From: Paraglaciecola polaris LMG 21857
GTDB taxonomy: Bacteria > Pseudomonadota > Gammaproteobacteria > Enterobacterales > Alteromonadaceae
DNA: 49,292 bases
Assembly (NCBI RefSeq): GCF_000315055.1
Contig: NZ_BAER01000013.1
Location: 1 to 49,292, forward strand
Direction of reading: 5' to 3'
This document shows positions 16,966 through 45,776 of the stretch, piece after piece. The notes under the pieces were generated by a model. The model saw only the letters and a list, made by a program, of their open reading frames with translations. It ran no database searches and was not told where the DNA came from. The position numbers were made by a program, and so were the translations under genes. Position 1 is the stretch's first letter. Every line of letters starts with the position of its first letter.

Positions 16966-17447
16966 TATAGGATCCTTATGTATTCAGACCATTTACGCGT
17001 TGTGCAAATGGTACTCAGTTGTTAATGGCGTGTAATTTAACAGAATCAAACATTTTAACAGGTCAAACATATGATGTTTATTGCTGATTTAATTGGCTTA
17101 CGATAAGGCACGGCTGAATGCGATGAAATTAGGAAGAAAGACTTGGCGTCGCTTAAGAGCAGGCGATTTTTATTTGCTTGGTTTTAAGGGCACCGTTAGA
17201 AATCTATCTGAGCATTTAGGAAAAGCGCTCGATTTTTGACCCTAGAGTTCAAAGCGACTTACTCATATAAATTCCCTTAAAATCAGTTCGTCAGCGACGT
17301 AACTCAGCTTATTTGCAGTAAAAATAGTTTAGTTAGGGATTATTTCGCCGATTGACTTAGGATCATTCGTTAGTTTGGGTATGATACGGCGGAACTATAA
17401 AAGTCATAAAAATGACGCGTAGAAGTAGATAAAAAACAGGGAACAAA
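16966..17447. other. Divergent intergenic region (482 bp)
   Basis: Contains promoters for the TonB receptor and the M14 peptidase. Visible: a small inverted repeat AAACAT-ATG-ATGTTT (17065-17079), a second TCAAACAT nearby, and a short frame (see 17123-17239). TTGACT (17352-17357) and TATGAT (17380-17385) precede the peptidase but are 22 nt apart, too far for a standard promoter. Confidence 0.4.
17123..17239 (+). CDS. Possible 38-residue ORF or gene remnant
   Basis: ATG frame beginning M-K-L-G-R-K-T-W-R-R-L-R-A-G-D-F and ending G-K-A-L-D-F. The composition is protein-like (alternating basic and hydrophobic residues). The frame stays open upstream to a TTG at 17093. There is no clear ribosome-binding site and no family match that I recognise. 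It could be a decayed gene end or a small basic protein, or chance. Confidence 0.2.
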   Translation: MKLGRKTWRRLRAGDFYLLGFKGTVRNLSEHLGKALDF

Positions 17448-20153: not shown

Positions 20154-20194
20154 TAGCTAACAGGTATCTTGTTAATGCGCCGTCATGACGCAAT

Positions 20195-20232
20195 AAAAAA
20201 CGCCAAGTGTCCTAAGCCACTTGGCGTTTTTT
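20195..20232. terminator. Strong bidirectional terminator
   Basis: Perfect 15-bp inverted repeat AAAAAACGCCAAGTG / CACTTGGCGTTTTTT with an 8-nt loop, between the convergent M14 peptidase and S-formylglutathione hydrolase genes. Confidence 0.95.
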
Positions 20233-20259
20233 CTATGTGTAGAATAGTGAACGATTTAG

Positions 20260-21128
20260 TTAAACGTACTCGGCTAGGTGTTTGGCATGAAAACGCAAAT
20301 GGTCTTCAATGAAACTACTGATGAAAAAGTAACTGTGATCATACCCTCCATGATAACGGAATTCAGCCGGGTAGCTTGTTGCTAGGGCGACGTCCTCCAA
20401 AGGTTTGGCCAACTTTTGCGTAGTATAAAAGTCATCTGCTAAACCTTGATCAATAAGCATGGGGATCTGCAAAAATTTCCCCTGCTCACGCATTAATTCG
20501 CAGCTATCGTATTGTTGCCATTCGCTTTTATCGTCGCCTAAATAATGGCTAAAGGCTTTTTGGCCCCATGGGCAATCCATGGGATTAACGATGGGGGAGA
20601 ATGCCGATACCGAACTAAAACGCTTGACGTTAGACAGGGCAATCATTAACGCGCCATGCCCCCCCATTGAGTGTCCAGCAATAGCGGCTTTGTCATGCAC
20701 GTTAAAATGTTGTTGGATCACATTCGGTAGCTCATCAACTATGTAATCGTACATACGATAATGCTTAGCCCAAGGTGCTTGTGTCGCGTTAATGTAAAAG
20801 CCTGCGCCTAAGCCAAGATCGTAGGCTTCGTCATCCGCATCTGGTACATCGTCGCCTCGCGGGCTAGTGTCTGGTATAACCAGCATGATGCCCAGTTCAC
20901 TGGCAATTCGCTGTGCCCCTGCTTTGCTGACAAAGTTTTCGTCAGTGCAGGTTAAACCACTTAGCCAATAAACTACGGGCACGGTTGTTCCGTTTGCGGC
21001 ATCAGGGGGTACATAGACACTAAACGTCATTTCACAGTTTAAGACACTAGAAGTGTGGCTAAAACGTTTCTGCCAGCCGCCAAAACAGCGGTTAGCCGCC
21101 AGCTCGTTCAGGTTAGTGGCAGTATTCA

Positions 21129-21129
<1 letters not shown>
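20260..21129 (-). CDS. fghA: S-formylglutathione hydrolase
   Basis: Alpha/beta-hydrolase of the esterase D family, 289 residues. It hydrolyses S-formylglutathione to formate and glutathione, the second step of glutathione-dependent formaldehyde detoxification. Seen: the nucleophile elbow G-H-S154-M-G-G, an acid in D-Q-G-L-A-D232-D-F, H265 in G-G-Y-D-H-S-Y-F-F, and the family phrase [12 protein letters not shown] (55-66). Its ATG overlaps the stop codon of the upstream dehydrogenase by one nt (TAATG), so the two are translationally coupled. The gene order dehydrogenase-hydrolase is standard in gammaproteobacteria. No FrmR-type repressor is seen next to them. Confidence 0.96.
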
Positions 21130-22268
<1,139 letters not shown>

Positions 22269-22303
22269 CTATTGAGCCGATTGATACAGGCTAGATAAAT
22301 TTA

Positions 22304-22744
22304 CTATTGAGATGCCACTGACTTACACGCACCCATTAACCGGATACGTCTTGACTCCCAAATAATGTCATCGATGCTATAACCATTGGGGCATAAATCC
22401 CGTTTTTCTAGGGTGTTTTTAAGGTTATGCACGGCCTTGTCTTCCAGTGCTAGTTTTGTTTCGTTGTCTGGCTGGGGATTAAAATTGGAGCCAATAGGGC
22501 GAGCAGGGCGATTACTCAAGCCATCGTGTCTACCGTCTCGGCCGCCTCGGTTTGTTGATTCTTCTTCGGGTAAGTTAAACCATGATAAAGCAAAAGCGAA
22601 TTGGGTCTCTCCCTCAGGTCCAATTTGGGTACTAAATTTATCTGTGGTTTCGATGGGCTTAGGTTCATTGCTCGCGCAACCGGATAAGCCGACAACGAGT
22701 AGGATTAAGGACAATGTATACACGTTCTTTGTGTGTGTTTTCAC
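22304..22744 (-). CDS. Small hypothetical lipoprotein
   Basis: Protein of 146 residues with a lipoprotein signal: basic K-T-H-T-K, a hydrophobic run, then lipobox L20-S-G-C23. The mature part is hydrophilic, with a G-G-R-D-G-R-H-D-G stretch, and carries two later cysteines (in L-C-P-N-G-Y and M-G-A-C-K) that could pair in the periplasm. The start is GTG at 22744, since no ATG precedes the signal sequence, and the ribosome-binding site is poor. It lies 56 bp upstream of frmA on the same strand, so it could be co-transcribed, although a functional link is not obvious. No family recognised. Confidence 0.6.
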   Translation of the reverse strand: MKTHTKNVYTLSLILLVVGLSGCASNEPKPIETTDKFSTQIGPEGETQFAFALSWFNLPEEESTNRGGRDGRHDGLSNRPARPIGSNFNPQPDNETKLALEDKAVHNLKNTLEKRDLCPNGYSIDDIIWESRRIRLMGACKSVASQ

Positions 22745-22848
22745 TTAAATTTACTCACTTTTTTAGATATCTAGGGTTAGTCTAAACGCTTTGGTGGGGG
22801 CAGCGCAATTGACGTGTCCTGCTGAGCGATATAGCCAGGTGTGATTGT

Positions 22849-23704
22849 TTAAAATTGATACCAAAATGCACTGTTTTTATGCACTAACAATTCACTGGTG
22901 GAGTCACTTAGGCCTAACTGTGCGGTATAAGTTCGCCATAATTCGGCGTAAGAGCAGCTAAATGTATTAAGCGGAAAGTTACTCGCCAGCATTACCCGGC
23001 TTTGTGCCATAGTTTCCAGGCATGTTACCAGTACCCTTTGAATATCGTTTCGCGAGTAAGTACGGTTTTGCATTTCCCAGTCAGATAGTTTAATCGCCAC
23101 TTGAGGATATTGTGCCAATAACGTGAGGTTTTGCTGCCAGACTTGCCACGCAGCACTCGTATTCGAAGTGGGGGGCCAGCCGCCATGGTTTATAATGATC
23201 CGCAGCTCAGGTGTGTTTTCTAAAACCTTGCACAGAGCCTGAGTGGCGGAGATATCTTGCAATGAAAATTGTGCATCGAAGCTAAGTCCGTGCTTGGCAA
23301 GTAACGCCAGGTGTTGTTGAAACCTTTTCGTGGTTAATAGGCCTTGCGCGTCATCATCGAGTATGTGACGCACTCCCACTAAAGATGAATGGGTTTGTAG
23401 TTTACTCAGTACGGCTGGAAAATTTTTAGCGCATAAATCCCCCCCCCGCAACACTTTTAAACGGCAACGTACAATGTTGCTCTAACCAGTCAAGTTCGCG
23501 CCAAGGTTGTGCGTTATCAAACCCGGCTTCGATGTGCACAAAGCCGGCGAGTGTATGTTCAGGTGAAAGTCTTAAATCGTGTTCAGCAAAATTTTGATTT
23601 ATCTTGTTTTTGTCGGGCCAGCTTGGAAGGTGCTGGGGCTTTAGCCAGTCGTATTGCCCATTATCAAGATTAAAAAGGTGCAGGTGGGGATCAATTATGT
23701 CCAT
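22849..23704 (-). pseudogene. Amidohydrolase (sugar lactonase type), frameshifted at a G9 tract
   Basis: Two overlapping minus-strand frames (23704-23426 and 23454-22849) together encode one COG3618-type amidohydrolase of about 284 residues. The first carries D-P-H-L-H-L-F and Y-D-W-L; the second D-L-C-A-K-N-F, V-G-V-R-H-I-L-D-D-D and I-I-N-H-G-G-W-P-P. They meet at nine consecutive G on the minus strand (C at 23439-23447). With eight G the reading runs through as S-V-A-G-G-D-L-C-A-K; with nine the first frame stops shortly after at 23426. Relatives hydrolyse lactones such as L-fuconolactone or L-rhamnonolactone. The adjacent SDR dehydrogenase, 20 bp upstream, would supply the lactone. Sequencing error, a true mutation or slipped-strand switching all remain possible. 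Confidence 0.8.
23439..23447 (-). repeat. Homopolymer tract of nine G (minus strand)
   Basis: Nine C on the plus strand, placed exactly where the amidohydrolase changes frame. Losing one base restores the full protein. Such tracts are prone to slippage in replication and in sequencing. Confidence 0.9.
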
Positions 23705-23724
23705 TTTTAGGGGCCATTTATTGC

Positions 23725-24492
23725 TTATTGGGCTGTGTAGCCGCCATCTATTACCTGCAAACTTCCGGTAATAAACTGGGCATTTTCACTGGCTAAAAAA
23801 TAACATAGCTGGGCGACTTCATCAGGCTGACCTAAGCGTCCGAGCGGCTGTAAAGCGGCTTCTTCGGCATGAACTTCTTGTGCATCACGTCCAGACTGGG
23901 CGAGATATTTGTCGATAGCCGTGTGGTATAGGGGAGTTTCTATGGTGCCTGGACACACTGCGTTAGCGCGAATATTGTACATGGCGTAATCCAATGCGGT
24001 GGTTTTAGCCATGGATGCTAAGGCCGACTTAGTCAGGTTGTAGGCAAAGGAGTTATGTTTGGCGATAAGTGCCTGATCCGATGCCATTAAGATAATCGAC
24101 CCCCCTTGATGTTTGACCATACTGGGCAGCACACCTTGTATGGCTCCGTATGCACCTTTGACATTGATGGCGAACATACGATCGAGATCTGCTTCGCTGG
24201 TTTGCTCAATATTCGCTGACAGGTGTACTCCGGCATTTGATATCAAGCAATCTACTTTAGGGCTCAGGGCGAGGACATTTTGCATGGCGTTTTGTACTTG
24301 GTTAATCTGTGATACGTCACATTGTAACCATTGGATATTAGAGGATTGCTCGCCCAGAATAGGCGTCGGGGCATGTAAATCTAAGTTGAATACCCGATAA
24401 CCTTTATTGGCAAACAGCTGACAAATCGCTGAGCCAATACCAAAACTACCACCGGTGACGATACACACTTTTTGCTGTAATTGTTCAGTCAT
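23725..24492 (-). CDS. SDR-family sugar (or alcohol) dehydrogenase
   Basis: Classical short-chain dehydrogenase of 255 residues. Cofactor loop T-G-G-S-F-G-I-G (13-20), N-A-G (86-88), catalytic S138, Y151 and K155 (Y-N-L-T-K), and the usual C-terminal I-D-G-G-Y. Asp at the end of beta-2 (N-L-D-L-H) suggests a preference for NAD(H). With the lactonase-type gene just downstream (20 bp) it looks like the first two steps of a non-phosphorylating sugar oxidation, as in L-fucose or L-rhamnose pathways where an SDR makes the lactone. That assignment is from context. The remaining pathway enzymes (dehydratase, aldolase) are not in this window, so the unit may be a relic. Confidence 0.85.
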   Translation of the reverse strand: MTEQLQQKVCIVTGGSFGIGSAICQLFANKGYRVFNLDLHAPTPILGEQSSNIQWLQCDVSQINQVQNAMQNVLALSPKVDCLISNAGVHLSANIEQTSEADLDRMFAINVKGAYGAIQGVLPSMVKHQGGSIILMASDQALIAKHNSFAYNLTKSALASMAKTTALDYAMYNIRANAVCPGTIETPLYHTAIDKYLAQSGRDAQEVHAEEAALQPLGRLGQPDEVAQLCYFLASENAQFITGSLQVIDGGYTAQ

Positions 24493-24519
24493 AACGCCTC
24501 ATGAATTAGCTGATTGACG

Positions 24520-24536
24520 AGGGGCTATGAGCCCCT
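24520..24536 (-). terminator. Hairpin after DUF2721 gene
   Basis: 7-bp stem AGGGGCT/AGCCCCT with a 3-nt loop, just beyond the DUF2721 stop codon. No T-run follows in the minus direction, so termination strength is uncertain. Confidence 0.45.
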
Positions 24537-24541
24537 TGGGT

Positions 24542-24991
24542 TTATTCGTCGTCAAACTCTTTACCCATTTGTAATGTACGGGTAGCAAGTTGTACTTCTT
24601 TTAAGAATGATACGAGGGCAACAATAAGCAGCAATAATGCGATAACAAATAAAATAACCACACTTTGGGTAAGGTTAATCAATAAGAACTCACCGATAAA
24701 CAAGCAGCACACCACGGCGCAAACAAAAAGTGCTGAGGCGGTGCACATGCCGATTGAACGATTAATGATTTTTATACGTCGCCAAAGATATTTCAATTCA
24801 ACCTGGGATATTTTTAATTTTTCAGGATTTTTCAAAATCGCGACACGTCTTTCGATAATGCGTGCTCTGTCGACGATACGGCCTAAACGGCCAGACATAA
24901 CATTTAAAAAGCCCGCTATGCCGGTCAACATAAAGACCGGCGCGACGACGATTTGAATGACTTGGGCTAAATCAGAAATCGACGATTCCAT
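24542..24991 (-). CDS. DUF2721 membrane protein
   Basis: Inner-membrane protein of 149 residues matching DUF2721. An N-terminal hydrophobic helix (V-V-A-P-V-F-M-L-T-G-I-A-G-F-L-N) is followed by a basic R-L-G-R-I-V-D-R-A-R segment, a charged helix, then a long hydrophobic pair (A-S-A-L-F-V-C-A-V and V-V-I-L-F-V-I-A-L-L-L-L-I-V) and a charged tail. The function is unknown. Its start lies 3 nt after the stop of the orphan RimO C-terminal fragment, spacing typical of genes in one operon. This suggests the ancestral order was rimO followed directly by this gene. It now seems to depend on read-through from the reductase operon upstream or on a promoter inside the fragment. Confidence 0.85.
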   Translation of the reverse strand: MESSISDLAQVIQIVVAPVFMLTGIAGFLNVMSGRLGRIVDRARIIERRVAILKNPEKLKISQVELKYLWRRIKIINRSIGMCTASALFVCAVVCCLFIGEFLLINLTQSVVILFVIALLLLIVALVSFLKEVQLATRTLQMGKEFDDE

Positions 24992-24994
24992 TAA

Positions 24995-25312
24995 TTAGGC
25001 ACTCATGTCGTTAACTGCCACGCGAGCGGCCCACAAATCGTATTCATCAGAATGCTCAATTGTCGCAGTAATGAGATCGCCAGGTTTGAGTTCAACATCA
25101 CCGTTTAAATACACCAAACCGTCAATTTCAGGAGCATCGGCAAAGCTGCGACCAATGGCGCCTTCTTCGTCGACTTCATCGATTAATACTTGTATGGTTT
25201 GACCAATACGGCGTTTAAGTTTAGCTGTGCTGATTTGTTGTTGTTTTTGCATGAAACGGTCATAACGTTGTTGTTTTAGGTTTGCGTTTGACTCATGGTC
25301 ACTTCTAAGCAT
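24995..25312 (-). pseudogene. Orphan RimO C-terminal (TRAM) fragment
   Basis: This 105-codon frame matches only the last ~90 residues of RimO, the linker and TRAM domain: [15 protein letters not shown], then A-D-A-P-E-I-D-G and S-D-E-Y-D-L-W-A. Hand alignment with the complete RimO at 34008-35414 gives about 55 identities in 86 positions, so it is related but clearly diverged, not a fresh duplication. The radical-SAM and UPF0004 domains are absent. The first eight or so residues (M-L-R-S-D-H-E-S) have no RimO counterpart and the start lacks a good ribosome-binding site. It is probably the displaced 3' end of the original rimO, still abutting its old neighbour, the DUF2721 gene. A stand-alone TRAM protein is possible but less likely. 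Confidence 0.8.
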
Positions 25313-25417
25313 ATTGGTTGCAGCTCAAGTTAATGTAGTTGGAAGGTTCACTTCGAATTGTATTTTTTTGCAAAACATATACTTTACCCCTTCCACATTA
25401 ACTTGCCTACCAATATG
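25310..25417. repeat. Large imperfect inverted repeat at island edge
   Basis: Left arm 25310-25346 and right arm 25389-25417 pair in three blocks: CATATTGGT with ACCAATATG, CAAGTTAATGT with ACATTAACTTG, and GGAAGG with CCTTCC, separated by small bulges and a loop of about 42 nt. The left arm begins exactly at the ATG of the RimO fragment. No T-run follows on the minus strand, so it is not a standard terminator. Confidence 0.75.
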
Positions 25418-25460
25418 TCCCAACTTCTCGCGACCTAACCAGCAACGACTACCTTAACCA

Positions 25461-27332
25461 TTAATTGGAAAAGTCATCACATAGTATTTCGGAATCCTTT
25501 ACGCCTTGATTTTTCAGCATAACAATAGTGTCTAACATCATTTTTCTAGGGCCACATAAATAAAATTCAAGTTGGTTTAAATTTCCAAGCGTAAGAAATG
25601 AATGCTCTATTATCTGCTGTACATAACCAGTTTCACCGTGCCAATCTGATTCGGGTTTTGATAACACAGGTGTAAAATAAAAGTTTTGATGTTCAGAGGA
25701 AAGTTTTTCAAATAGCTCTCGATGAATTAAATCAATTTTATGACGTGCCCCAAAGTAAAAGTGCATATTTTGTTGGCATTTAAGTTTTTCTAACTGTTCC
25801 AGAATTATCGATTTGAGTGGAGCCATTCCCGAGCCTGCCCCTATCATAACCATTGTTTTTGTAACGTCATGCTGCGAGTCTTTAACATGAAATTTTTCGA
25901 ACGGGCCAATCGCCTCAATGCTTTCGCCAGGCTGCATGTTACAAATGTAATTTGAGCCAAAGCCAGGGGATAAGTCTGCTTTAGGGGCAGGTTGCATTTT
26001 TATTAAGAAAACCAATTCATTTGTTTGAGTATCATAATTAGCCAGTGAATAGCAGCGGCTGATTGCTGGGTGTTTATAATTTAACTTTACAATAGGTTCC
26101 CAGAGTGGCTGAAACTCACTAGGAAGTGTTGGCGGCACGGCACTTCCCTTTGCAGCTGGAATATTAAACTGTATATAGGCACCCGCTTTGAAGTTTAGAG
26201 GTTTTTCGCTATTACGTTTAAAGCGTAACTCCTTTATATAAGGGCTCAAAAATTTTGAATGAGTTAATATTAACTTTTGTTTTTTTGCGTTGTGAGCCAA
26301 TAATTCAACTTCTTTAACTTCGCTGCTGTTATGTTGACAAGCGAGTCGATGACCCGCATCAATTTCGTCCTGAGTCAATAAAGCACGCTCTGCTGAATTA
26401 CAGCTTAAAGTGGGATTTAACTTTACCTTACATTGTCCACATGTACCCCCACCGCCACAAGTGGATGGAATAAGAATGTCATGTGCATTTAGGCTCTCCA
26501 TTAAGTTTTTATGACTAGAAATATTCAATTTAGCTAGTGATTGGTTTAATGGGTTTTTGACTGATACAGGATATTTTTTAGCTAAAAAGCGAATACGGTA
26601 ATTGCCGCCAAATGCTAATTGGATTGTCCAAATAAAGCCTGAGAGGCACAGCCAAAGAGTAATGAATGCAAATAGAATAATATGCCAACTATTGAACCCG
26701 CCAACACCGTTATAATCCATAAAATGCAACATGAAGAAAAAGTCAGCTAAACGTTTGTCGTCATCACTATGGGAGATCAATTCGCCAGTTCGTGCGTCAA
26801 CGTACACACTTGTATTAACATTATCGCCGAAGTTGATTTGCCAAACTTGGTTTTTCTCTCTTACCATGTCGTCTATGGGCGGCGTCAACTTTGTTGCTGA
26901 TAATAGTTCTCCTGGGCCATTATATGAGCGATTGGCGATATATGTAGCTAACTCGGCATCAATCATTTTTGGTTGGCCTGTATAAGCATCGACAAGGGTA
27001 TAATCACTCACGAAATGCCGTCTCAATCCTTTGTGGTGAGTTAACAAGTAGTAAGGCTTTTCTTGTAAAGAAATAAACTTAATTGATTGGGTAGGGAGTG
27101 GAACCGAACCGCTGTTTGCTCGAATATTTTCTAAAATAGCCTGTGGATCTTTAAGTTTAGGCTGGTATGCGGCGAGTGATCTTGCCACTGATGGAATTTT
27201 GTTCTGATACTGGTCTCCGTGAATTTTATTCACATCCATAATATTGAAATAAAAACCACTTAATAACCAAATTAGTAACTGTATTCCCACTAAAACGGAG
27301 GCCCATTTATGTATCAATTTGATAAGCTGCAT
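25461..27332 (-). CDS. PepSY membrane protein fused to NqrF-like ferredoxin reductase
   Basis: Membrane flavo-iron-sulfur protein of 623 residues. Residues 1-240 are a PepSY-type unit with membrane helices near 8-30 and 214-238 enclosing a periplasmic part. Residues about 265-345 are a plant-type ferredoxin with 2Fe-2S cysteines C292, C298, C301 (C-G-G-G-G-T-C-G-Q-C) and C332. Residues 350-623 are a FAD/NAD(P)H reductase with R-C-Y-S-L-A-N-Y (426-433), G-A-G-S-G-M-A-P-L (498-506) and C-G-P (593-595), ending D-D-F-S-N. The last two parts resemble NqrF. Electrons would pass from NAD(P)H through FAD and 2Fe-2S to a periplasmic or membrane acceptor, perhaps Fe(III). ATG 27332 is preferred over GTG 27338 because AAGGAGG lies 7 nt upstream. 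It follows the smaller PepSY gene by 2 nt. Confidence 0.85.
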   Translation of the reverse strand: MQLIKLIHKWASVLVGIQLLIWLLSGFYFNIMDVNKIHGDQYQNKIPSVARSLAAYQPKLKDPQAILENIRANSGSVPLPTQSIKFISLQEKPYYLLTHHKGLRRHFVSDYTLVDAYTGQPKMIDAELATYIANRSYNGPGELLSATKLTPPIDDMVREKNQVWQINFGDNVNTSVYVDARTGELISHSDDDKRLADFFFMLHFMDYNGVGGFNSWHIILFAFITLWLCLSGFIWTIQLAFGGNYRIRFLAKKYPVSVKNPLNQSLAKLNISSHKNLMESLNAHDILIPSTCGGGGTCGQCKVKLNPTLSCNSAERALLTQDEIDAGHRLACQHNSSEVKEVELLAHNAKKQKLILTHSKFLSPYIKELRFKRNSEKPLNFKAGAYIQFNIPAAKGSAVPPTLPSEFQPLWEPIVKLNYKHPAISRCYSLANYDTQTNELVFLIKMQPAPKADLSPGFGSNYICNMQPGESIEAIGPFEKFHVKDSQHDVTKTMVMIGAGSGMAPLKSIILEQLEKLKCQQNMHFYFGARHKIDLIHRELFEKLSSEHQNFYFTPVLSKPESDWHGETGYVQQIIEHSFLTLGNLNQLEFYLCGPRKMMLDTIVMLKNQGVKDSEILCDDFSN

Positions 27333-27334
27333 CT

Positions 27335-28030
27335 TCACGCCTCCTTAGCTTTACGTAGAACCGTAAAGTAACTTAATCCCAAACCCAGTAAACATGCGCC
27401 AATACTGAATAAAGTTAGCCAAAAAAGCAGCCAATTGTCGTGTTCGCGATTATTGTAATCAGCCAAGTGAAAGCGAAACATCCAGTCGAATATTCGCCAA
27501 AAATTGTGACGGTAACGAACTAATTTGCCTGATTCTGCAGAGATGTAGATTGAAGGGCTACTAAAGGCATCATAGTCAATTCGATATGCCGGTAAAAATT
27601 TTTTGTTTAATCCGTAAGGTGGGTTTTGTGTAATTAAGTTAATTTCTTTTACTGCAGATGTACCGCTGTAATAGTAATTTGAGATTTCCGTTGCCCGCTT
27701 TTCGCCAAATGGAGCAAGGCGTTCACCTGTAAGGGCACTGAGTAACAGTTGTTGCTTACCATTGATCACATGATAAACAGTTTGGCCGGCTAGCGTTGCC
27801 AATTCAATATCGGTAGCTCCAGGGTATAAAGCTAAAATATCAGTCAGAGTGAATTTAACATCCTCAGAGTCGATATTTGGTTGATGCTCTTTAATTAAGT
27901 TGTTGCCATGAATATAGTTAAGGTCAATCACTACCATATATGTACCAGTGACTGACCAAATGACAAATTGAGTACCTAAAAACAGCATCATCCACTTATG
28001 ATATTGACGGATCTTATTTACTAACTTCAT
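27335..28030 (-). CDS. PepSY-domain inner-membrane protein
   Basis: Protein of 231 residues with an N-terminal helix (W-M-M-L-F-L-G-T-Q-F-V-I-W-S-V-T-G), a periplasmic region of about 150 residues with two PepSY-like segments (Y-R-I-D-Y-D-A-F and Y-I-S-A-E-S-G-K-L-V) and a C-terminal helix (W-L-L-F-W-L-T-L-F-S-I-G-A-C-L-L-G). It parallels the first 240 residues of the fusion protein encoded next (shared H-K-W, I-H-G, R-x-H-L/F-x-D-Y-N), so the two probably arose by duplication and may form a heteromeric membrane complex. H-K-W and the later H-x-D-Y-N resemble the haem or metal positions of PepSY-associated TM proteins (inference). It is the first gene of the operon. Confidence 0.8.
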   Translation of the reverse strand: MKLVNKIRQYHKWMMLFLGTQFVIWSVTGTYMVVIDLNYIHGNNLIKEHQPNIDSEDVKFTLTDILALYPGATDIELATLAGQTVYHVINGKQQLLLSALTGERLAPFGEKRATEISNYYYSGTSAVKEINLITQNPPYGLNKKFLPAYRIDYDAFSSPSIYISAESGKLVRYRHNFWRIFDWMFRFHLADYNNREHDNWLLFWLTLFSIGACLLGLGLSYFTVLRKAKEA

Positions 28031-28242
28031 CCACTTTAACCTTCAACTTTAATTTCTAAGATAGGGCAGGCCTGTCACTTTTGGCACCGCTTAATATGGG
28101 TCTTTAACAAGCGCGAACGCATTATTGTATTTTTATCTTTGAGTATTCAAACATTGGAACTCTTTTTTGGCTCAATTAAACATCTTTTATATGTCTTTTT
28201 CTTTTTTTACTCTATATTACAATGGTTTAGGAGGAGTCTAGT
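28031..28242. promoter_or_regulatory. Divergent promoter region of the island operons
   Basis: AT-rich 212-bp gap between the PepSY operon (minus) and the small ORF/regulator unit (plus). Long T-runs and a TATATT-like box near 28211 are visible. I cannot define promoter elements precisely. Confidence 0.4.
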
Positions 28243-28392
28243 ATGGAAGGTGTGGTTGCCTATTTGGGATTATTAAATGGTTTGAAGCCTCCAGATTTAT
28301 GTTTTAAATACTTGTTGTGCTACGTAGAAATTTTATTCTTGTTCAAATTGGGATATATTATCCAGCGAAAAATTTTGCAACCTTTTAGCTAA
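28243..28392 (+). CDS. 49-residue hydrophobic small protein ahead of CadC-like gene
   Basis: Frame of 50 codons including stop, opening M-E-G-V-V-A-Y-L-G-L-L-N-G-L-K-P-P and continuing with a hydrophobic stretch (Y-L-L-C-Y-V-E-I-L-F-L-F-K-L-G-Y-I-I) before a basic end (Q-R-K-I-L-Q-P-F-S). AGGAGGAG (28229-28236) lies 6 nt before the ATG, the best ribosome-binding site in this part of the window, which argues that it is translated. It ends 27 bp before the regulator start, so both are probably on one mRNA. It could be a single-helix membrane partner of the membrane-bound regulator or a leader peptide. It is too short for usual gene-calling cut-offs and no family is recognised. Confidence 0.55.
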   Translation: MEGVVAYLGLLNGLKPPDLCFKYLLCYVEILFLFKLGYIIQRKILQPFS

Positions 28393-28419
28393 CCTATTGA
28401 TTTGAAGTGATGTCTACGC

Positions 28420-30540
28420 ATGGCAGTATATGGTCCGTTTAAACTTGAGTCGTGCATAATCAAACCTCACGATTATTCTATAAAATTTCCCGATGGCCAG
28501 GCAAAATTACTGCAACCTAAATTTATCTATGTATTAGCCTACTTAGCCGAACATTTTCCTCGATTAGTTACCCGAGAAGAGTTAATTGAAGAGATATGGG
28601 ACGGGAATTTCCCGGTGGGAGAAAAAGCCCTTACTAATGCTATCTGGAATTTGCGCAATGAATTTAAGCAATTCGAGAATATTAATCTCGAAACTGTACG
28701 TAGAAAGGGTTATCGATTATTAACAAAACCAGAATATATCTATCCGGATAATGAAAGTTGTAGTGAGAGTGTTGCTGCAGATAAAGTCAATAAACAAGCT
28801 GGTGTTTTAGGCAAAAAAATTGCTGTTTCTGCCGTTGCAGTGGTGATCATCACTTTACTTTGGCAACTTATATCGCAATCAATTATAACAAAAAACACTG
28901 ATATCGTAAGCTTGACCTCAGAGCCTGGGCGCGAGGTTTATCCTATGGTATCGCCTGATGAACGTTATTTGATTTTTACTTGGCGTCACATTACTGGCTC
29001 ACCAAATTTATATATTAAAGACCTTAGCGATACGTTGTCAAAATCAAGGCAAATTACCTTTACTGAAAATTATGAGGGGCGAGCAGTTTGGCATCCCAAT
29101 AGTGAGGTGGTTTACTTCCAGCGCAAACATTGGGATTTCAAGCGTTGTGATGTTGTCCGGTTAAACATTGTTACTATGGTGGAGAAAAAAATTGCCACAT
29201 GTGATGCTGAAAAAGATTTTTCGTTGGCAATTTCAGCTGACGGCGTTTTTTTAGCTTATGTGGTTAAAAAACAAAGTAATCAACACCTTAACGTCAAGTT
29301 AATCAATCTTAATAGTAATGCGATGGAAGCTACACTTTTACCATGTCATCAAAAATGCAATTTCCAGGATTTGGATTTAGCTTTTTCACCTGATGGTCAG
29401 CAATTAGCCTTATCTCGTACTGCAAGTGACGGCATGAACGAAGACATATTTCTATATAATTTAAACAAGCGAAAATTACAACATCTTGTCGCTACTGAAG
29501 GGCGTTTACGCGGTTTAACTTGGCATCCAGATGGCGAACGTATTCTTTATGGTGGGGAAGAGTCAGGACAACGGAACGCTTATCTTGTTGCTTTAAGGGA
29601 TAGAAAAACAGTTAACCTTAATGTTCCTGGTTTTAGTTATCCAAGTTTCATTCCTAACAGTCATCAGGTTGTTTATCACAGCCGTGAAGACATCAGTAAA
29701 CTGTCCACATTGGACTTAAGTGAAGCAACTGGTGCGACACTTTTTCCACTGATACATTCCAATTATATCTATAAAGACCCTCATTATAGTGAGGCAAATA
29801 ACAGCATAGCCTTTATTTCTACGGAATCGGGTTATGAAGAGATTTGGAGTGCTGATCCCGACGGAAGTAATCGAAAACAACTGACTAAATTGAAAAGACA
29901 TCTGTCGTCTCCAAGGTGGTCACATAATGGTAGATATATTGCGTTTTTAGCGCCAGATAAAGAAACTAAGCGCAGTGCCTTGTTTGTACTTAATCTTAAA
30001 GAAAGTAACCTGATCCAGATGGATAGTAAATTTGAACAGTACTTTAGGCCTTCTTGGTTACGAGACGATAGCGGGCTTATTGCGGGCGCTAAGTTTAAGG
30101 GCAGTTCAGCGCTTTATGGTTTTCCAATAAATGAAAGTCCACCTTACGTCATCATAAATCAATCGATAACTTACGCAGAGCAAGCGGAAAACGGTGATAT
30201 ATGGTTTTCTAAAGGCCGTAATCTTGGCTTGTGGCGGTATTCTTCACTTAATAAAGCAGATAAGCCAATACAGGTACTCAGCGATAAGGTGTTTCAGGTT
30301 GAACATCACTGGGAGTTAACCAAGGATGGCGTTTTTTTCCAGCATGATTACGCTAATTACCATCAAATACAGTATTTTAATTTTAATACCCAAGAAATTA
30401 TAACGCTGGTAAAACTGCCATTTGGCACCATTTCCCGTAAGTCATCCATTACTTATATTCCTAATCTCAAAAAACTTGTGATTGCCGAGCAAGAATTTGT
30501 TAATACAGATATAAAACAGTTATCTCATTCAAGTTTATAA
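28420..30540 (+). CDS. CadC-like membrane regulator with TolB/WD40-type sensor
   Basis: One-component regulator of 706 residues. Residues 1-102 are an OmpR-type winged helix (L-V-T-R-E-E-L-I-E-E-I-W, then the recognition helix A-L-T-N-A-I-W-N-L-R and the wing V-R-R-K-G-Y-R-L). A single membrane helix lies at about 133-153. The rest is a periplasmic beta-propeller with repeated TolB-type turns: S-P-D-E-R-Y-L-I-F, W-H-P-N-S-E-V-V-Y, S-P-D-G-Q-Q-L-A-L, W-H-P-D-G-E-R-I-L, W-S-H-N-G-R-Y-I-A. Such CadC-like proteins sense an envelope signal and bind DNA while anchored in the membrane. Position between the reductase operon and a TonB receptor suggests it controls one or both. The ligand is unknown. 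Confidence 0.85.
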   Translation: MAVYGPFKLESCIIKPHDYSIKFPDGQAKLLQPKFIYVLAYLAEHFPRLVTREELIEEIWDGNFPVGEKALTNAIWNLRNEFKQFENINLETVRRKGYRLLTKPEYIYPDNESCSESVAADKVNKQAGVLGKKIAVSAVAVVIITLLWQLISQSIITKNTDIVSLTSEPGREVYPMVSPDERYLIFTWRHITGSPNLYIKDLSDTLSKSRQITFTENYEGRAVWHPNSEVVYFQRKHWDFKRCDVVRLNIVTMVEKKIATCDAEKDFSLAISADGVFLAYVVKKQSNQHLNVKLINLNSNAMEATLLPCHQKCNFQDLDLAFSPDGQQLALSRTASDGMNEDIFLYNLNKRKLQHLVATEGRLRGLTWHPDGERILYGGEESGQRNAYLVALRDRKTVNLNVPGFSYPSFIPNSHQVVYHSREDISKLSTLDLSEATGATLFPLIHSNYIYKDPHYSEANNSIAFISTESGYEEIWSADPDGSNRKQLTKLKRHLSSPRWSHNGRYIAFLAPDKETKRSALFVLNLKESNLIQMDSKFEQYFRPSWLRDDSGLIAGAKFKGSSALYGFPINESPPYVIINQSITYAEQAENGDIWFSKGRNLGLWRYSSLNKADKPIQVLSDKVFQVEHHWELTKDGVFFQHDYANYHQIQYFNFNTQEIITLVKLPFGTISRKSSITYIPNLKKLVIAEQEFVNTDIKQLSHSSL

Positions 30541-30983
30541 AAAGTGTAAATACTCAAAAGTAAAGTCTAATGGCAGCTCAATGTATGGGGAGAGTTTAAA
30601 ATTTTTACCTCTATCCCAGTCGTTGATTCATTGTATTAATGACCTTTGAGTGAATGCAGCAAAAACATTCGATCGAAAACTGTCATTCCTCATCTCCACT
30701 TAAAACCTTTTGAAAACCAATACGGGTGTGCGGAGATGTTAGTCACAGTTAACTATTTTGTGATTGTAAATATCCAGAGCCAATCTTGAGAACAACTTTA
30801 ACTCATTGTATTAAAAGAAAAAGATAAATAAAAGACATACAATAGAGCTTAAAAAGAGACTCGATATTTGAGTTTTACTTTCGTTCGAATTACTACTGGT
30901 GTGGGTTAAATTGACGTGCTCAATAAAAGCAACTCTGGGAAAAGGTAAAGCAGTAAAATAAATGTAATTCTTTGGGGATTAAA
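30541..30983. promoter_or_regulatory. Regulatory region of island TonB receptor
   Basis: 443 bp without a gene. The 12-mer TCATTGTATTAA occurs exactly twice in direct orientation, at 30628-30639 and 30803-30814. These may be binding sites of the CadC-like regulator upstream (inference). No terminator hairpin with a T-run was found directly after the regulator. Confidence 0.45.
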
Positions 30984-33791
30984 ATGTACAGAAAAAAAAT
31001 AAATATAATGGACAAAAAACTATCCTTAATCACTATATCACTATTAACCGCACTTGGTACAGCGACAGCTGACGAAAGTGCAGTAGATGATCGGGTTGCG
31101 GTTGAACGAATTCAAATCACTGGTTCTAGTATCAAACGAACAGATATCGAGGGAGCTTTACCCTTAGCAACTATTTCTGCAGAAGACATTGCCAATTCTG
31201 GCGTCACTTCAGTATCAGAGTTAATTCAAAAAATACCTGCGATGCAAGGGTATCAAGTCGGAGCTCAGTCTGTTGGTGGCGGGGATAGCAGTGGTAACAA
31301 TGGTAAACAAACTGTGTCACTGAGAGACCTTGGCGGTTCCTATACGCTAGTGTTACTCAATGGACGTCGTATGGCCTCTGCAGATAGTGGCGGCACAGTC
31401 GATATTAGTTCCATTCCGCTCGCGGCGATTAAACGAGTAGACGTGTTGATGGATGGCGCCTCAGCGTTATATGGCTCTGACGCAATTGCGGGTGTGGTTA
31501 ATTTCATCATGAAAGATGATTTTCAGGGCCTAACGGTCAGTGCGCGAGCTGACAAACCACAAGAAACTGGCGGCGAAAGTTCTGAATTCAGTATTACGGG
31601 GGGATTTGGTAACTTAAATTCGGATGGTTTCAATGTTTTGATGACTTATAGTCATTCAGAAAATGAAAATTTACGCTCGCTTGATCGTGAGTTTGGTAAA
31701 ACCGGTATTGTGCCGTTTAATTACAACGGTGAAGATTTATTTTTATTACGCGCTTCATCGAATGCCATTCCAGCAAATTTATATTTAACCTTTGATCAAG
31801 AAATCGATGGCTCAACCAGTAAAGCATATAATCCATATGCAGAAATCAACGGTGAATGTGCGCAATATAACTACGCTTCAGGCTCTACTTGTATCTATGA
31901 CTATACTGAGAATCTAGAAATCTCGCCTGAAAGTGAAAGCGATAACTTGTATCTACAAGGCAGTGTTTATTTAAATGATAATACCGAATTATATGCCTCA
32001 GGTAGTTATTCAACCTACAGTATAACAACCCGCATTGCGGCTAATACACTCAATAATTACAAGTTTGAATTGGACTCGCCTTTTGTCACTAACTTGGTTC
32101 AACCTTTGTTAACTGATGCACAATATGATGCACTTGCTGATGTTAAAATCCGCTGGCGTACGCGTCCTGCTGGCAGTCGTTCTAACGAATATGACACTGA
32201 TACTTTCAATTTTACAACTGGCTTACGAGGTGACTATGGCGATGTTTCTTATGATTTTGCGTTAACCCAAGCAAATAGTACCCGTGACAGAAACATGGTT
32301 TCCGGTTATTTAATTACAGATCAACTATCTGCTTTGCTAGATAGCGGGGCGATTGATGTATTTGCCAGACCTGAACAATTATCCGAAAGCATGAATGAAG
32401 CATTACGCGCGATTACTTACAGTGGTAACTGGGATACCCTCAAAACTAAAACAAGTGCTATTGAAGGCAGTGCCTCAGCTCCAGCTTTTGAATTGCCAGC
32501 TGGTCTTGTTTATGTCGGAGGGGGATTTGACTACCGGGAAAATGAGTTTATTAGTGTTACCAGTCAGGCTAATAAGGACTCGATATTAACAGGCTCACCA
32601 GACGCCGAGTATGACTTGTCTAGAGAGACTTATGGTGTTTACCTTGAAGCTGTTGCGCCTATTATTGATGGCTTAGAAGTTACCACTGCGGTTCGTTACG
32701 ATAATATCGGTGCGGTTAATGATGGTAAACGTGCCGCGAATGCGCAGCAAGTTAACGATGATGCATCAGACACAACTTATAAAATATCTTTATCATATCG
32801 CCCAAATGATGATTTATTGCTACGAGGCTCGATTGGAACAGGCTTTAAATCTGCGTCAATGATCGATATTGCAGGGCCAAAAGTAGATGCAGGGGTCACA
32901 TCTCAAAACTATGATTGTCCTCTCGCCGCGTCACATCCATTAGCGCAATATTGTTTCCCGCAGTTATCGCAGTATGCGATTGCAACCTCAGGTAATGATG
33001 AACTGCAGCCAGAGACCTCAAAACAACGTTCAGCCGGTTTTGTTTATGCGCCTTCCAATGAGTTTAGCGTTAGTGTTGATTGGTGGCAGATTAATCTCAC
33101 CAATCAGGTTAAGAAAGTGACTCAACAGCAAATATTTGCGGATCCAGTTACCTACAATAGCCTTTATGGCACGCTTTTAAATGAGCTAAGTGGGGAGTTG
33201 GAAATTCAAGTATTGCAAGCGCCAGTAAACATTGGCAAATCGAATAACCAGGGGATAGATTGGGTTGTTTCCCTAGGGCATGATTTCTCTATGGTATACC
33301 TTCGTTCAACTTTGCGAGGTGCTTATATCCTTGAGAGTGAAACCTTACGAGTGGGTACGATAGATATCTATGACACCAGTCTAGGTAAATTTGGTACCGA
33401 TAGTAAAGTAACTTTTCCACACATTATCCAGTGGACTAATAATTTTAGTCATGGGGATTTTGCACACTCAATTAATCTAAACTATCGCAGTGGTTACGAG
33501 GATCAAACTTACTCGGCTAACGCTTCACAAATTCGCTATCAGTCTGATATTGATCAGCGCTTTGAACAGGCAATTGAACGTAATGTAAGTAGTTATCTGA
33601 CAGTTGATTATCTGACTCAATGGGATGTTAACGACAGTGCAAGTGTAGGTTTCGGTATCAAGAACTTACTTGATCGTCAGCCTCCATTATCTCTGCGTAG
33701 TTCAGGTGGTGGTTATCAAGTTGGTTATGACCCAAGATATGTTGACCAACTAGGCCGTACGTATTACTTAAAAGGGACGTATAGCTTTTAA
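30984..33791 (+). CDS. TonB-dependent receptor (island cargo)
   Basis: Outer-membrane receptor of about 935 residues. Signal peptide L-S-L-I-T-I-S-L-L-T-A-L-G-T-A-T-A, TonB-box region V-E-R-I-Q-I-T-G-S-S-I-K-R, and a plug with V-S-L-R-D-L-G, V-L-L-N-G-R-R and L-Y-G-S-D-A-I-A-G-V-V-N-F. The barrel ends Y-Y-L-K-G-T-Y-S-F. The R-D-L-G...N-G-R-R type is widespread in Xanthomonadales and Alteromonadales with varied substrates. Linkage to a PepSY/NqrF-like reductase favours iron-bearing or redox-active ligands, but this is inference. The frame is open from a TTG at 30972; ATG 30984 is chosen because GGGGA precedes it at suitable distance, and ATG 31008 is also possible. It ends at a bidirectional terminator. 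Confidence 0.88.
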   Translation: MYRKKINIMDKKLSLITISLLTALGTATADESAVDDRVAVERIQITGSSIKRTDIEGALPLATISAEDIANSGVTSVSELIQKIPAMQGYQVGAQSVGGGDSSGNNGKQTVSLRDLGGSYTLVLLNGRRMASADSGGTVDISSIPLAAIKRVDVLMDGASALYGSDAIAGVVNFIMKDDFQGLTVSARADKPQETGGESSEFSITGGFGNLNSDGFNVLMTYSHSENENLRSLDREFGKTGIVPFNYNGEDLFLLRASSNAIPANLYLTFDQEIDGSTSKAYNPYAEINGECAQYNYASGSTCIYDYTENLEISPESESDNLYLQGSVYLNDNTELYASGSYSTYSITTRIAANTLNNYKFELDSPFVTNLVQPLLTDAQYDALADVKIRWRTRPAGSRSNEYDTDTFNFTTGLRGDYGDVSYDFALTQANSTRDRNMVSGYLITDQLSALLDSGAIDVFARPEQLSESMNEALRAITYSGNWDTLKTKTSAIEGSASAPAFELPAGLVYVGGGFDYRENEFISVTSQANKDSILTGSPDAEYDLSRETYGVYLEAVAPIIDGLEVTTAVRYDNIGAVNDGKRAANAQQVNDDASDTTYKISLSYRPNDDLLLRGSIGTGFKSASMIDIAGPKVDAGVTSQNYDCPLAASHPLAQYCFPQLSQYAIATSGNDELQPETSKQRSAGFVYAPSNEFSVSVDWWQINLTNQVKKVTQQQIFADPVTYNSLYGTLLNELSGELEIQVLQAPVNIGKSNNQGIDWVVSLGHDFSMVYLRSTLRGAYILESETLRVGTIDIYDTSLGKFGTDSKVTFPHIIQWTNNFSHGDFAHSINLNYRSGYEDQTYSANASQIRYQSDIDQRFEQAIERNVSSYLTVDYLTQWDVNDSASVGFGIKNLLDRQPPLSLRSSGGGYQVGYDPRYVDQLGRTYYLKGTYSF

Positions 33792-33920
33792 TCGTTTGAG
33801 ATAGTTAATAAAGGTTCAGCCGAGCTATAAATATCAGGAATAAAATGAGTAGTCAAAATCACAGGTTATACTGGTGTATTTCTGGCTACTAAGGTTTGCA
33901 AGCCGCAACTCGAATAAAAC

Positions 33921-33953
33921 AAAAAGCCCGCAATATATTATTGCGGGCTTTTT
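33921..33953. terminator. Bidirectional terminator, TonB receptor / rimO
   Basis: Perfect 15-bp inverted repeat AAAAAGCCCGCAATA / TATTGCGGGCTTTTT with a 3-nt loop, between the convergent receptor and rimO genes. Confidence 0.95.
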
Positions 33954-34007
33954 AATAATTCTACAAAAAAACGATTTTAGTTAACGCTCATTTATATTTT
34001 TCCGGCA

Positions 34008-35414
34008 TTACTCTTCTACTTTTACTGCCCAAAGATCATATTCGTTGCTATGAATAATTTGTGCCCAGATGATATCGCCTGGCTCTACATCAAACCCATC
34101 AGTTAAATGCACATTGCCATCAATTTCAGGGGCATCTGCGTAACAACGACCCACAGCACCTTCTGGTGTGACTTCATCAATAATTACTTGGTATTCTAAA
34201 CCAATTTTTTCTTTTAGCTTAGCTGTGCTGATCTGTGATTGTTTTTGCATGAAACGCTCAAAACGCTCCTGCTTAACGTCTTCGCTTATGGGGTCTGGCA
34301 ATTCATTTGCTTTGGCGCCTTCCACATCAGAATATTTAAAACAGCCCACTCGGTCTAATTGCGCTTCATCTAAGAAATCCAGCAACATTTGGAAGTCTTC
34401 TTCTGTTTCACCAGGGAAGCCAACAATAAAGGTTGAACGAATCACTAACTCGGGACATAGCTCACGCCATTTTTTGATGCGCTCCATGGTGCGCTCAGCA
34501 GCAGCAGGGCGCTTCATTAATTTTAGAATACGTGGGCTGGCGTGTTGAAATGGAATATCTAGATAAGGCAACACTTTACCAGACGCCATCAGTGGCATGA
34601 CTTTGTCTACTGACGGGTAGGGGTAAACGTAATGCAGACGTACCCACATGCCCATTTCGCCGAGCTTTTTGCACAATTCAGTCATGTTGGTTTTAACTGG
34701 CATGCCGTCCCAGAAACCCATTTTATTTTTAACATCAACGCCATAGGCACTGGTGTCTTGTGAAATGACTAATAATTCTTTTACACCGGCATTTTTTAAA
34801 CGTTTGGCTTCATCTAATATTTCACCAATAGGACGGCTGACTAAATCGCCGCGCATGGATGGAATAATGCAGAAGGTGCATCTGTGATTACAGCCTTCAG
34901 ATATTTTTAAATACGCATAATGGCGAGGCGTTAGTTTCACGCCTATATCTGGCACTAGGTTTAAATAAGGATTATGGCTCGGTTGTGGCAGGTGCTCGTG
35001 AACCTGATTAACCACCTCTTCGTAGGCGTGAGGTCCGGTTATGGCGAGTACATTTGGGTGTACTTCGCGAATTTCGTCTTCTTTTATACCTAAGCAGCCA
35101 GTGACGATCACTTTACCATTTTCCGCTAATGCTTCACCTATGGTATCCAGTGATTCTTGTACTGCCGTATCGATGAAACCACAGGTATTCACGATGACCA
35201 AATCTGCGTCATTGTAGGTGTTTACCACGTCGTACCCTTCGGTGCGAAGTTGGGTCAAAATACGCTCAGAATCAACCAGGTTTTTTGGGCAGCCCAGGCT
35301 AACAAAACCAATTCGTGAACCTGTCGATAAGGTGTTTGGCTTGTCGGCTTCTAGGATCTTTACCGGTGTTTCTAGGGTGGTAGTTTGCTTGGGATTAAAG
35401 GTTTCAACAGTCAT
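34008..35414 (-). CDS. rimO: Ribosomal protein uS12 methylthiotransferase RimO
   Basis: Radical-SAM enzyme of 468 residues that methylthiolates an aspartate (Asp88 in E. coli numbering) of ribosomal protein uS12. The UPF0004 domain carries cysteines in L-G-C-P-K-N, N-T-C-G-F and T-G-C-L-G (about 42, 78, 107). The radical-SAM cluster is C175-x3-C179-x2-C182 ([11 protein letters not shown]), and the TRAM domain occupies about 390-468. ATG 35414 is preferred over TTG 35417. It is somewhat longer than the E. coli enzyme (about 441), mainly at the N-terminus. Its C-terminal part is likely the replacement supplied by the inserted segment; the original end may be the fragment at 24995. If so, this is a chimera, with a junction near 34270-34290. 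Confidence 0.95.
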
Positions 35415-35527
35415 CAAATGCTCAAAATAAAGTAGTGTATCGCGGCGTTTGCCAATTGCGGGGATTATAGCGGAATTGCGTTGTGAATGTCATGACAAAC
35501 AGATGGTCTGTCATATTGGGCAAGATA

Positions 35528-39112: not shown

Positions 39113-39219
39113 GAGTTATGGGTGAAGTTAATTTAACTTAACTATCTGCCTGATTTAACTTGCAGTTATCAATTCGGATGACTTATAAAGGTAGTGATAT
39201 TCGAGACTAATGTGGAGTG

Positions 39220-39972
39220 ATGGGGATTAATCTTTTAATTTGGCTGGAGCGAGCATGTTCCTTTGAAGTAGTATCCGGTTATATTATTTCCGGTTTCAAA
39301 AAGACAAATATTACTCGTTTTTGCATTGTGGCCCTGTTTGCATCAATGCTAACCAGCGCGCAAAAAGTCAATGTGGAGTTTGACCTATTCATTTCGCTGT
39401 TACATGAGCGTTACGATCCCATGCGTGCAGATGTGGGACGTGAACTTCAGAAGATGCTGGAAGGTTTGCATAATGCGTCTGAAATAGACAAGGTGAATAC
39501 CGTCAATACGTTTTTCGATAATCAACTTACCTACCAGACCGATATTGCCCTATGGCATGAAAAAGATTACTGGGCGACGCCGTTAGAGACCTTAGGAAAG
39601 GGCAGAGGCGATTGCGAAGATTACGCCATTATTAAGTACTTTATGTTGCGGTACTTAGGCGTGGCCGAAAGCCAATTGCGTTTAGTCTACGTCAAAGCAA
39701 GAATCGGTGGACCTAGAAGTAAAATTACCCAAGCACATATGGTATTGTCCTACTATTTACCTAAACAAAGTGAGCCCCTTATTTTGGATAGTTTACTGGC
39801 CGATGTGGTGCCTGCTTCCCAACGCCCAGACCTACTGCCTGTGTTTAGTTTTAATACCCAAGGATTGTGGGCTAAAGGCTCAACAAACTCAGTAGCGAGT
39901 CCCACTGCACGTTTGTCTAGATGGCGAAATGCCCTGGATAAAATAAAACTAGAGGGGATCTCGTGGGGGTAA
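39220..39972 (+). CDS. lapG: Periplasmic cysteine protease LapG-like (BTLCP)
   Basis: Transglutaminase-like cysteine protease of about 250 residues that cleaves the N-terminus of a surface adhesin in the periplasm and so frees the cell from the biofilm. The catalytic triad is visible: C132 in G-D-C-E-D-Y-A, H173 in A-H-M-V-L and D190 in L-D-S-L. Acidic residues flanking the cysteine match the calcium site known in LapG. A hydrophobic export segment lies at about 34-47 (F-C-I-V-A-L-F-A-S-M-L-T-S-A) behind an unusually long N-terminal extension, so the true start may be further in. The LapD-like gene follows after 31 bp, and the expected target site (TAAG) is present in the adhesin at 47380. 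Name assigned by family and context. Confidence 0.9.
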   Translation: MGINLLIWLERACSFEVVSGYIISGFKKTNITRFCIVALFASMLTSAQKVNVEFDLFISLLHERYDPMRADVGRELQKMLEGLHNASEIDKVNTVNTFFDNQLTYQTDIALWHEKDYWATPLETLGKGRGDCEDYAIIKYFMLRYLGVAESQLRLVYVKARIGGPRSKITQAHMVLSYYLPKQSEPLILDSLLADVVPASQRPDLLPVFSFNTQGLWAKGSTNSVASPTARLSRWRNALDKIKLEGISWG

Positions 39973-40003
39973 TTTATCTCATCAACACAAAGGTAAATGA
40001 TAC

Positions 40004-41926: not shown

Positions 41927-42021
41927 CTGGCACAATTCACGCGTTTTGGTACATGTTATGTTGTGGGCCGCTTATTGCTAATGGTTTGCAATATGTTGCC
42001 CATGTGTCTGCTGTGGCATTA

Positions 42022-45587: not shown

Positions 45588-45776
45588 AATTCATTCTCGA
45601 TAAACTTCTGTATGCGTAATTTAAAAAAATTTTAGTTATTAATTTTCATACCTATGTATAAAAATTGAAACATAAGCTGTTGATGGAATCACTTCATATA
45701 TTATTTTATTTAGCCCGAGTTATAATTTTAATTAATGCTGTAAAGTAGTATTCCTTTATTTCATTAATGTTGTTTT
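45588..45776. promoter_or_regulatory. AT-rich spacer between TolC-like and LapB-like genes
   Basis: 189 bp, very AT-rich, no open frame. It may carry a separate promoter for the ABC/adaptor pair on the minus strand. No hairpin terminator was recognised after the TolC-like gene. Confidence 0.4.

Follow-up and report, generated by a model that had tools for sequence, protein, structure and literature searches.

The rimO gene of Paraglaciecola polaris LMG 21857 (G000; assembly of 5.24 Mb in 146 contigs) is a mosaic whose native 3′ end lies elsewhere in the same locus. Within the window, the whole stretch of 49,292 nucleotides analysed here (contig NZ_BAER01000013.1, positions 1–49,292), the end of this gene has, with hardly any room for doubt, been replaced by that of another lineage and the native end displaced, so that an insert of 8,998 bp with four genes now lies between the full-length rimO and an orphan fragment. 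Comparisons were made with 21 other Paraglaciecola genomes, of which the six closest relatives (G016, G013, G009, G010, G005 and G006) carry the native-type end. With rimO codons counted from the ATG start, the locus reads as follows, each line ending with the evidence for it.

34257..35414, minus strand: rimO codons 1–386, the resident (native) part; 96–97% amino acid identity to the six relatives, N-part tree, codons 383–386 native-type
34239..34256, minus strand: 18-nt stretch, codons 387–392, where the full copy passes from native to donor; identical to 25241–25258, codon table
34008..34238, minus strand: rimO from codon 393 to its stop, a 3′ end of donor type with the TRAM domain; DNA identity, C-part tree
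25259..25276, minus strand: start of rimO homology in the fragment, codons 381–386, donor-type; KQQRYD as in G018, G004 and G003
25241..25258, minus strand: 18-nt stretch in the orphan copy; identical to 34239–34256
24995..25240, minus strand: displaced native 3′ end of rimO; 77–82% DNA identity to the ends of the six relatives, C-part tree (100/95)
24542..24991, minus strand: DUF2721 gene, native downstream neighbour of rimO; amino acid identity

The complete rimO occupies 34008–35414 on the minus strand (ATG start, 468 amino acids) or extends to 35417 (TTG start, 469 amino acids) and encodes the domains UPF0004, Radical_SAM and TRAM_2. The orphan fragment (24995–25312, minus strand, 105 amino acids) contains TRAM_2 alone (E 1e-21). 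It aligns with residues 380–467 of the 469-residue RimO with 55 of 88 residues identical (E 1e-37), and with full rimO at the nucleotide level with 71% identity over 198 nt (E 3e-22), far beyond chance. Its stop lies 3 nt ahead of the start of the DUF2721 gene (PF11026) at 24991. A RimO query against the assembly returned three matches, namely the full gene, the orphan fragment and a 30%-identical gene that is read as MiaB; no tRNA genes were found in the window. The initial annotation of this stretch, made from its letters alone, had described a complete rimO and an orphan 3′ end in the same orientation on either side of a cargo, and checks of coordinates, domains and identities bear this out; of its count of about 55 identical residues in 86, the 55 was correct, but the aligned length is 88. 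The orphan is not supported as a decaying pseudogene, as its frame is open and its nonsynonymous divergence (dN) from G016 is 0.043, against 0.037 between G016 and G009, with synonymous divergence saturated or undefined for most pairs.

The N-terminal part of the full gene goes with the host lineage, its C-terminal part with other congeners and the orphan fragment again with the host lineage. Ahead of the region homologous to the fragment, RimO is 96–97% identical in amino acids to the six relatives, and its end about 61%. Against the 15 other congeners, the same end is 85–91% identical in nine (G004 91, G018 90, G012 89), 79–83% in G007, G015, G017 and G021, and 55–62% in G002 and G014, while the orphan end is 83–85% identical to the six relatives. 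In DNA, codon 393 to stop of the full copy is 87% identical to G018 versus 58–61% to the six relatives, and identity between G000 and G018 is 78% over the N part and 87% over the C part. Each of six donor-type genomes, compared against 12 others, shows a gap of at most 5 points between N and C identity.

Separate trees agree with these values. In the tree of the N part (codons 31–385, 39 rows), G000 is nested in the clade of the six relatives (support 100/100), and in that of the C part (codons 397–465, 40 rows), the full-copy end is nested with G018, its nearest congener, and G004 (96/85) and the orphan is grouped with the six relatives (100/95). Approximately unbiased (AU) tests reject both a placement of the G000 C part with the six relatives (p 4e-37) and one of its N part with the six donor-type genomes (p 4e-69). 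For the control paralogue miaB, the N and C distances of G000 correlate at +0.95 versus −0.71 for rimO (20 congeners, 21 genomes), a control that speaks for G000 only, as the rows of G015 (0.28), G001 (0.37) and G007 (0.38) also correlate poorly. An ancient independent TRAM gene, which the initial annotation had named as a finding that would overturn its model, is rejected by the clustering of the fragment with the rimO ends of the relatives, and a tandem duplication within the genome is rejected since the two ends are 62% identical and belong to different lineages.

The uninterrupted locus is found in the relatives. Window positions 17375–25278 and 34117–35517 align to adjoining stretches of G016, whose single rimO end is matched twice by the G000 window, and the same contiguous empty site is seen in G013, G009 and G006 (four relatives compared, including G016). 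The matched ends of rimO and DUF2721 are 20–67 nt apart in 16 of the 21 other genus genomes, among them the six closest relatives without exception, and farther apart in five (G018, 0.3 kb; G014, 1.7 kb; G020, 1.9 kb; G008, 6.3 kb; G002, 17 kb). DUF2721 itself is 90–97% identical in amino acids to the six relatives and 71–78% to the other 15 genomes. The contiguous pair without cargo that the initial annotation proposed to look for thus exists. The model given there, in which a segment entered rimO, provided a new 3′ end and pushed the native end away with DUF2721, is likewise upheld by the trees, the AU tests and the empty site. It needs refinement in that the first codons of the orphan make this copy a hybrid too, a sign of a reciprocal crossover, and in that the native end of the relatives is of a type unusual for the genus.

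The switch points were located by comparing codons with seven donor-type and six native-type genomes (13 in all). The full copy is native-type at codons 383, 385 and 386 and donor-type at codon 393. The orphan has Y at codon 385, as in all seven donor-type genomes, D at 386 (five of seven) and Q at 383 (four of seven), where the six native-type genomes uniformly have F, E and E, respectively; from codon 402 on it is native. Because the first codons of the orphan are donor-type, both rimO copies are hybrids. Codons 381–386 of the orphan differ at 6 of 18 nt from the full copy of G000, and codons 387–392 are identical in both copies over 18 nt, as direct repeats, with homology continuing beyond both sides. 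Codon 397 is ACA in both G000 copies and in none of the 13 compared genomes. The switches of both copies fall within codons 387–402 of 468.

The inserted cassette is foreign, with a GC content of 38.8% against 45.7 and 43.0% in the flanks, and its four genes form an iron-uptake-like set:

25451..33822, no strand assigned: cassette common to plasmid pGLAAG01; 80.1% identity over 8,383 aligned positions
30972..33791, plus strand: TonB-dependent receptor; PF00593, PF07715
28420..30540, plus strand: regulator with a Trans_reg_C (winged-helix) DNA-binding domain and WD40-like propeller repeats; domain scan
27335..28030, minus strand: small PepSY-like protein; no Pfam match
25461..27338, minus strand: membrane ferredoxin-type reductase with PepSY_TM and Fer2, FAD- and NAD-binding domains; domain scan
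33922..33952, no strand assigned: strong hairpin with A/T runs, a probable two-way terminator, in the gap separating rimO from the TonB receptor gene; z −7.0
25309..25418, no strand assigned: long imperfect hairpin at the border of cassette and fragment; z −4.6 (plus strand), −2.5 (minus strand)

The small PepSY-like protein is weakly similar to the N part of the reductase and is its neighbour in each of the six other genomes inspected. The cassette is found on both a chromosome and a megaplasmid, pGLAAG01 of Glaciecola sp. 4H-3-7+YE-5, where the same four genes are flanked by others with annotations for copper resistance and heavy-metal efflux. Within the genus, five of the 21 other genomes match the 5-kb part from reductase to regulator, and only over short pieces that never exceed 219 nt, while region 25285–25470 matches none of them; among 394 genomes sampled across the order, the best relative of the reductase shares 54% identity and belongs to another family. 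A check for the same cargo at other rimO loci, also proposed initially, found none, and no recombinase domain was detected in the four cargo proteins.

Other members of the family have inserts and partial rimO copies as well. Across 395 genomes, which include genomes without a RimO-level match, up to four candidates were scored per genome, so that the counts are lower bounds; all 31 genomes with at least three matches (29 plus G000 and G002) and G090 were opened individually. A clear partial rimO on the contig of rimO occurs in at least 11 of the 395 (G000, G002, G045, G085, G098, G147, G150, G184, G234, G268 and G352), with G246, whose main rimO runs off its contig, as a weak twelfth case. 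Left out of this count are the pieces in G020, G022 and G257, which lie on a different contig from rimO, genes broken up between frames or at the end of a contig, and, in G308, a weak match of 42 residues at a distance of 565 kb. The same 395 genomes yielded no intact miaB with a second, partial copy next to it (at most four candidates each; the 21 with at least three matches opened); four broken miaB genes are adjoining frames (G002, G194) or contig-end pieces (G219, G372). Many family genomes (e.g. G027, G030, G038) have a MiaB-level match only, and rimO therefore seems dispensable there.

G002 is an independent case of an insertion in rimO with a mosaic gene. Its rimO is genus-type to about codon 175 and then of a type common to G014 and other genera (G127, G318, G045). 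At a distance of 9 kb there follows a decayed native copy (codons about 235–458) that returns to the second type in its final nine codons. Between the intact and decayed copies (L135, 4739–13395) lies a cluster for 2-aminoethylphosphonate breakdown, with PhnW, phosphonoacetaldehyde hydrolase, an aminophosphonate oxidoreductase and a TonB receptor. In G098, the cluster between rimO and a remnant (about codons 409–469) encodes a transporter, two IucA/IucC proteins for siderophore synthesis and a TonB receptor; the remnant is closest to G014 (83%) and the resident end to G150 (94%). Between rimO and DUF2721, the insert of G014 encodes a YHYH protein and that of G020 a chemotaxis-type receptor, whereas G008 and a second block of G002 have genes of the PepSY, TonB receptor and enterochelin-esterase-like kinds. 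Scans of 4, 11, 5, 2 and 1 insert proteins from G000, G002, G008, G014 and G020, respectively, detected neither recombinase nor transposase domains, one G002 receptor having been scanned in its C-terminal part only. By eye, L214 (G352) and L191/L219 (G045), from two genera, have similar sigma-factor and cytochrome-like sets after rimO, with rimO remnants at the edges. The family has two TRAM types, and the N-part tree shows five switches between them, two of which are forced by starred branches, in a survey of end types that used a quick tree and its own identity threshold and left five ambiguous rows of 62 uncounted. A comparison of rimO ends by named locus dropped 14 of 77 loci, for which the script found no full rimO.

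A second breakpoint site lies near the 5′ end. Copies of rimO start or end at codons 40–44 (LGCPK motif) in L223 (G085), L222 (G150), L218 (G147), L215 (G184) and L214 (G352), some of them serially, and a full-length rimO remains each time. A serine recombinase lies against the rimO start in G085, a tyrosine integrase follows the rimO remnant in G147, and in L261, a viral contig from IMG/VR, a large serine recombinase is encoded divergently from a rimO whose start lies immediately ahead of the LGCPK motif. The serine-recombinase cases resemble the published integration mode of phage JC1, which enters the 5′ end of rimO by its own serine recombinase with an 18-bp overlap (PMC9144972), and differ from the event in the window.

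As the inserted genes include no recognisable jumping-gene enzyme, ordinary DNA recombination is the most likely cause, and we favour, with moderate confidence, a single-crossover insertion of a rimO-bearing molecule as the likeliest mechanism for the codon pattern. The donor would have been a molecule from another Paraglaciecola, G018-like at rimO, with the four-gene cassette beside a rimO 3′ segment starting at about codon 381. One reciprocal crossover with the resident rimO, in the conserved stretch just before the TRAM domain (codons 387–402), would have inserted it as a circle in the Campbell manner, presumably by RecA-type homologous recombination and after arrival by plasmid or transformation. 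The upstream product would then be a full enzyme gene of native 5′ and donor 3′ parts, and the downstream product a truncated gene of donor start and native 3′ part, still beside DUF2721, with the cassette in between. That both copies are hybrid fits one reciprocal crossover and speaks against one-ended illegitimate joining as well as against an ancient TRAM gene, and the codon pattern is better matched by homologous crossover accompanied by a short conversion tract than by a precise site-specific exchange.

Several observations weigh against this mechanism. In the C-part tree the fragment branches outside all six relatives, whereas the N-part tree nests G000 beside G016 and G013. The orphan has K at codon 401, a residue that it shares with two of the seven donor-type genomes and that no native-type genome has. 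P0001, which represents a cluster of four sequences, probably comes from another strain and is 97% identical to the orphan (3 of 105 residues differ), has the donor S at codon 393, where the window orphan has Q; together with codon 401 this suggests that the two switch points need not coincide. Only some 60 nt of usable homology are available for the crossover, searches found neither a circle nor a donor genome with cassette and rimO fragment, and no rimO lies near the pGLAAG01 cassette in the 31.7-kb plasmid stretch.

Unequal switch points, as P0001 and codon 401 permit, would be natural if linear donor DNA already of the form rimO–cassette–rimO fragment had recombined by two homologous crossovers, one per rimO copy. 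This route gives the same final product, and hotspots flanked by core genes have been proposed to arise through such double crossovers (PMC5635113); we nevertheless consider it rather unlikely, as the left crossover would have had about 1.2 kb of homology to choose from and yet appears to lie, like the right one, within one and the same short stretch. Alternatively, a recombinase that acted in trans or has since disappeared might have integrated the cassette site-specifically at the 18 nt common to both copies; this would account for the identical 18-nt direct repeats and has precedents in the targeting of the rimO 5′ end by JC1 (PMC9144972) and in the serine recombinases against rimO starts in G085 and L261. 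The cassette has no recombinase domain, however, homology extends past the 18-nt core on both sides, and the other 3′ cases start elsewhere (G002 at about codon 235, G098 at 409, G268 at 437), while the 5′ cases use codons 40–44 and do not carry over to the window, which together make this explanation improbable.

Homology-facilitated illegitimate recombination, homologous on the rimO side with non-homologous joining on the other, is published for transformable bacteria (PMC3240628), and illegitimate joining has been invoked for gene displacement in type VI secretion systems (T6SS) (PMC5361080). It fits G002, whose remnant starts native at about codon 235, but the window orphan starts with donor-type rather than native rimO codons and its homology is not one-ended, so that we regard it as highly improbable here. 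We give the lowest probability to a history in which G000 keeps an ancestral genus-type end, the relatives swapped theirs, and an old duplicated state lost its cargo in them. The end of the relatives (type I) is indeed unlike those of other congeners and nearest to other genera, but the G000 end is not basal in the C-part tree but nested beside G018 and G004, identity is higher in the C part than in the N part, and the position of G000 inside the clade of the relatives in the N-part tree would require at least two losses.

Among known systems, insertion into rimO has been described for JC1, for islands in Acidithiobacillus (PMC10322971) and, in one sentence citing other work, in Polaromonas (PMC4482086); islands in dusA, mostly at its 5′ end and with a family of integrases, supply a replacement gene end (PMC4482086). 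These resemble the window in the target gene or in the supplied gene end, but JC1 and most dusA islands use the 5′ end and a recombinase or integrase, whereas the window event concerns the 3′ end and a cargo without recombinase (PMC9144972, PMC4482086). The initial statement that no case was described in rimO therefore fails for the 5′ end and is narrowed to the 3′ end, for which no case turned up in literature searches that most subscription papers lay outside. Displacement of the C-terminal ends of rhs and T6SS effectors (PMC2935791, PMC5361080) is closer: the 5′ part is kept, a new 3′ end arrives with downstream genes, the old end or partner gene is displaced downstream as an orphan, and no integrase is known. 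There, however, the gene is a polymorphic toxin gene and one-ended illegitimate joining is invoked, whereas in the window the gene of a ribosome-modifying enzyme is rebuilt full-length and the orphan is the reciprocal hybrid. Core-gene-flanked hotspots (PMC5635113) share the lack of a recognised mobile element, the variable contents at one site and recombination in flanking genes; homologous recombination in the flanking core gene is found in the G000 and G002 mosaics, and different inserts occupy the site in G000, G002, G008, G014 and G020. The window differs in that the exchange leaves a duplicated gene end, with breakpoints readable inside the gene. The kind of event is already known from toxin genes and core-gene hotspots; what is new is a ribosome-modifying enzyme gene with reciprocal hybrids.

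An enzyme gene can thus act as a recombination arm for accessory genes and stay full-length with a domain from another species, which helps to account for the differing histories of the RimO TRAM end and catalytic part in the family. At such loci single-gene trees and annotations as truncated duplicates are misleading, and the reciprocal hybrid pattern offers a test that separates insertion of a circle from one-ended illegitimate joining. We suggest, tentatively and as something possible rather than probable, that rimO is a general docking gene in Alteromonadaceae, in which nutrient-uptake islands would carry their own rimO 3′ end and move as circles, excising as well as inserting, by housekeeping recombination alone, each insertion rebuilding a full-length hybrid rimO. 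If true, TRAM domains and islands would be shuffled together without any integrase.

Elsewhere in the window, an amidohydrolase-like gene (22849–23704, read by eye) is apparently split over two overlapping frames, as by a frameshift. YHYH-domain proteins (PF14240) are encoded both at 3036–4334 and in the rimO–DUF2721 insert of G014. The stretch 39217–49292 holds genes that we take to resemble those for a LapG-type protease, a LapD-like GGDEF/EAL protein, a type I secretion set and the start of a large repetitive adhesin.

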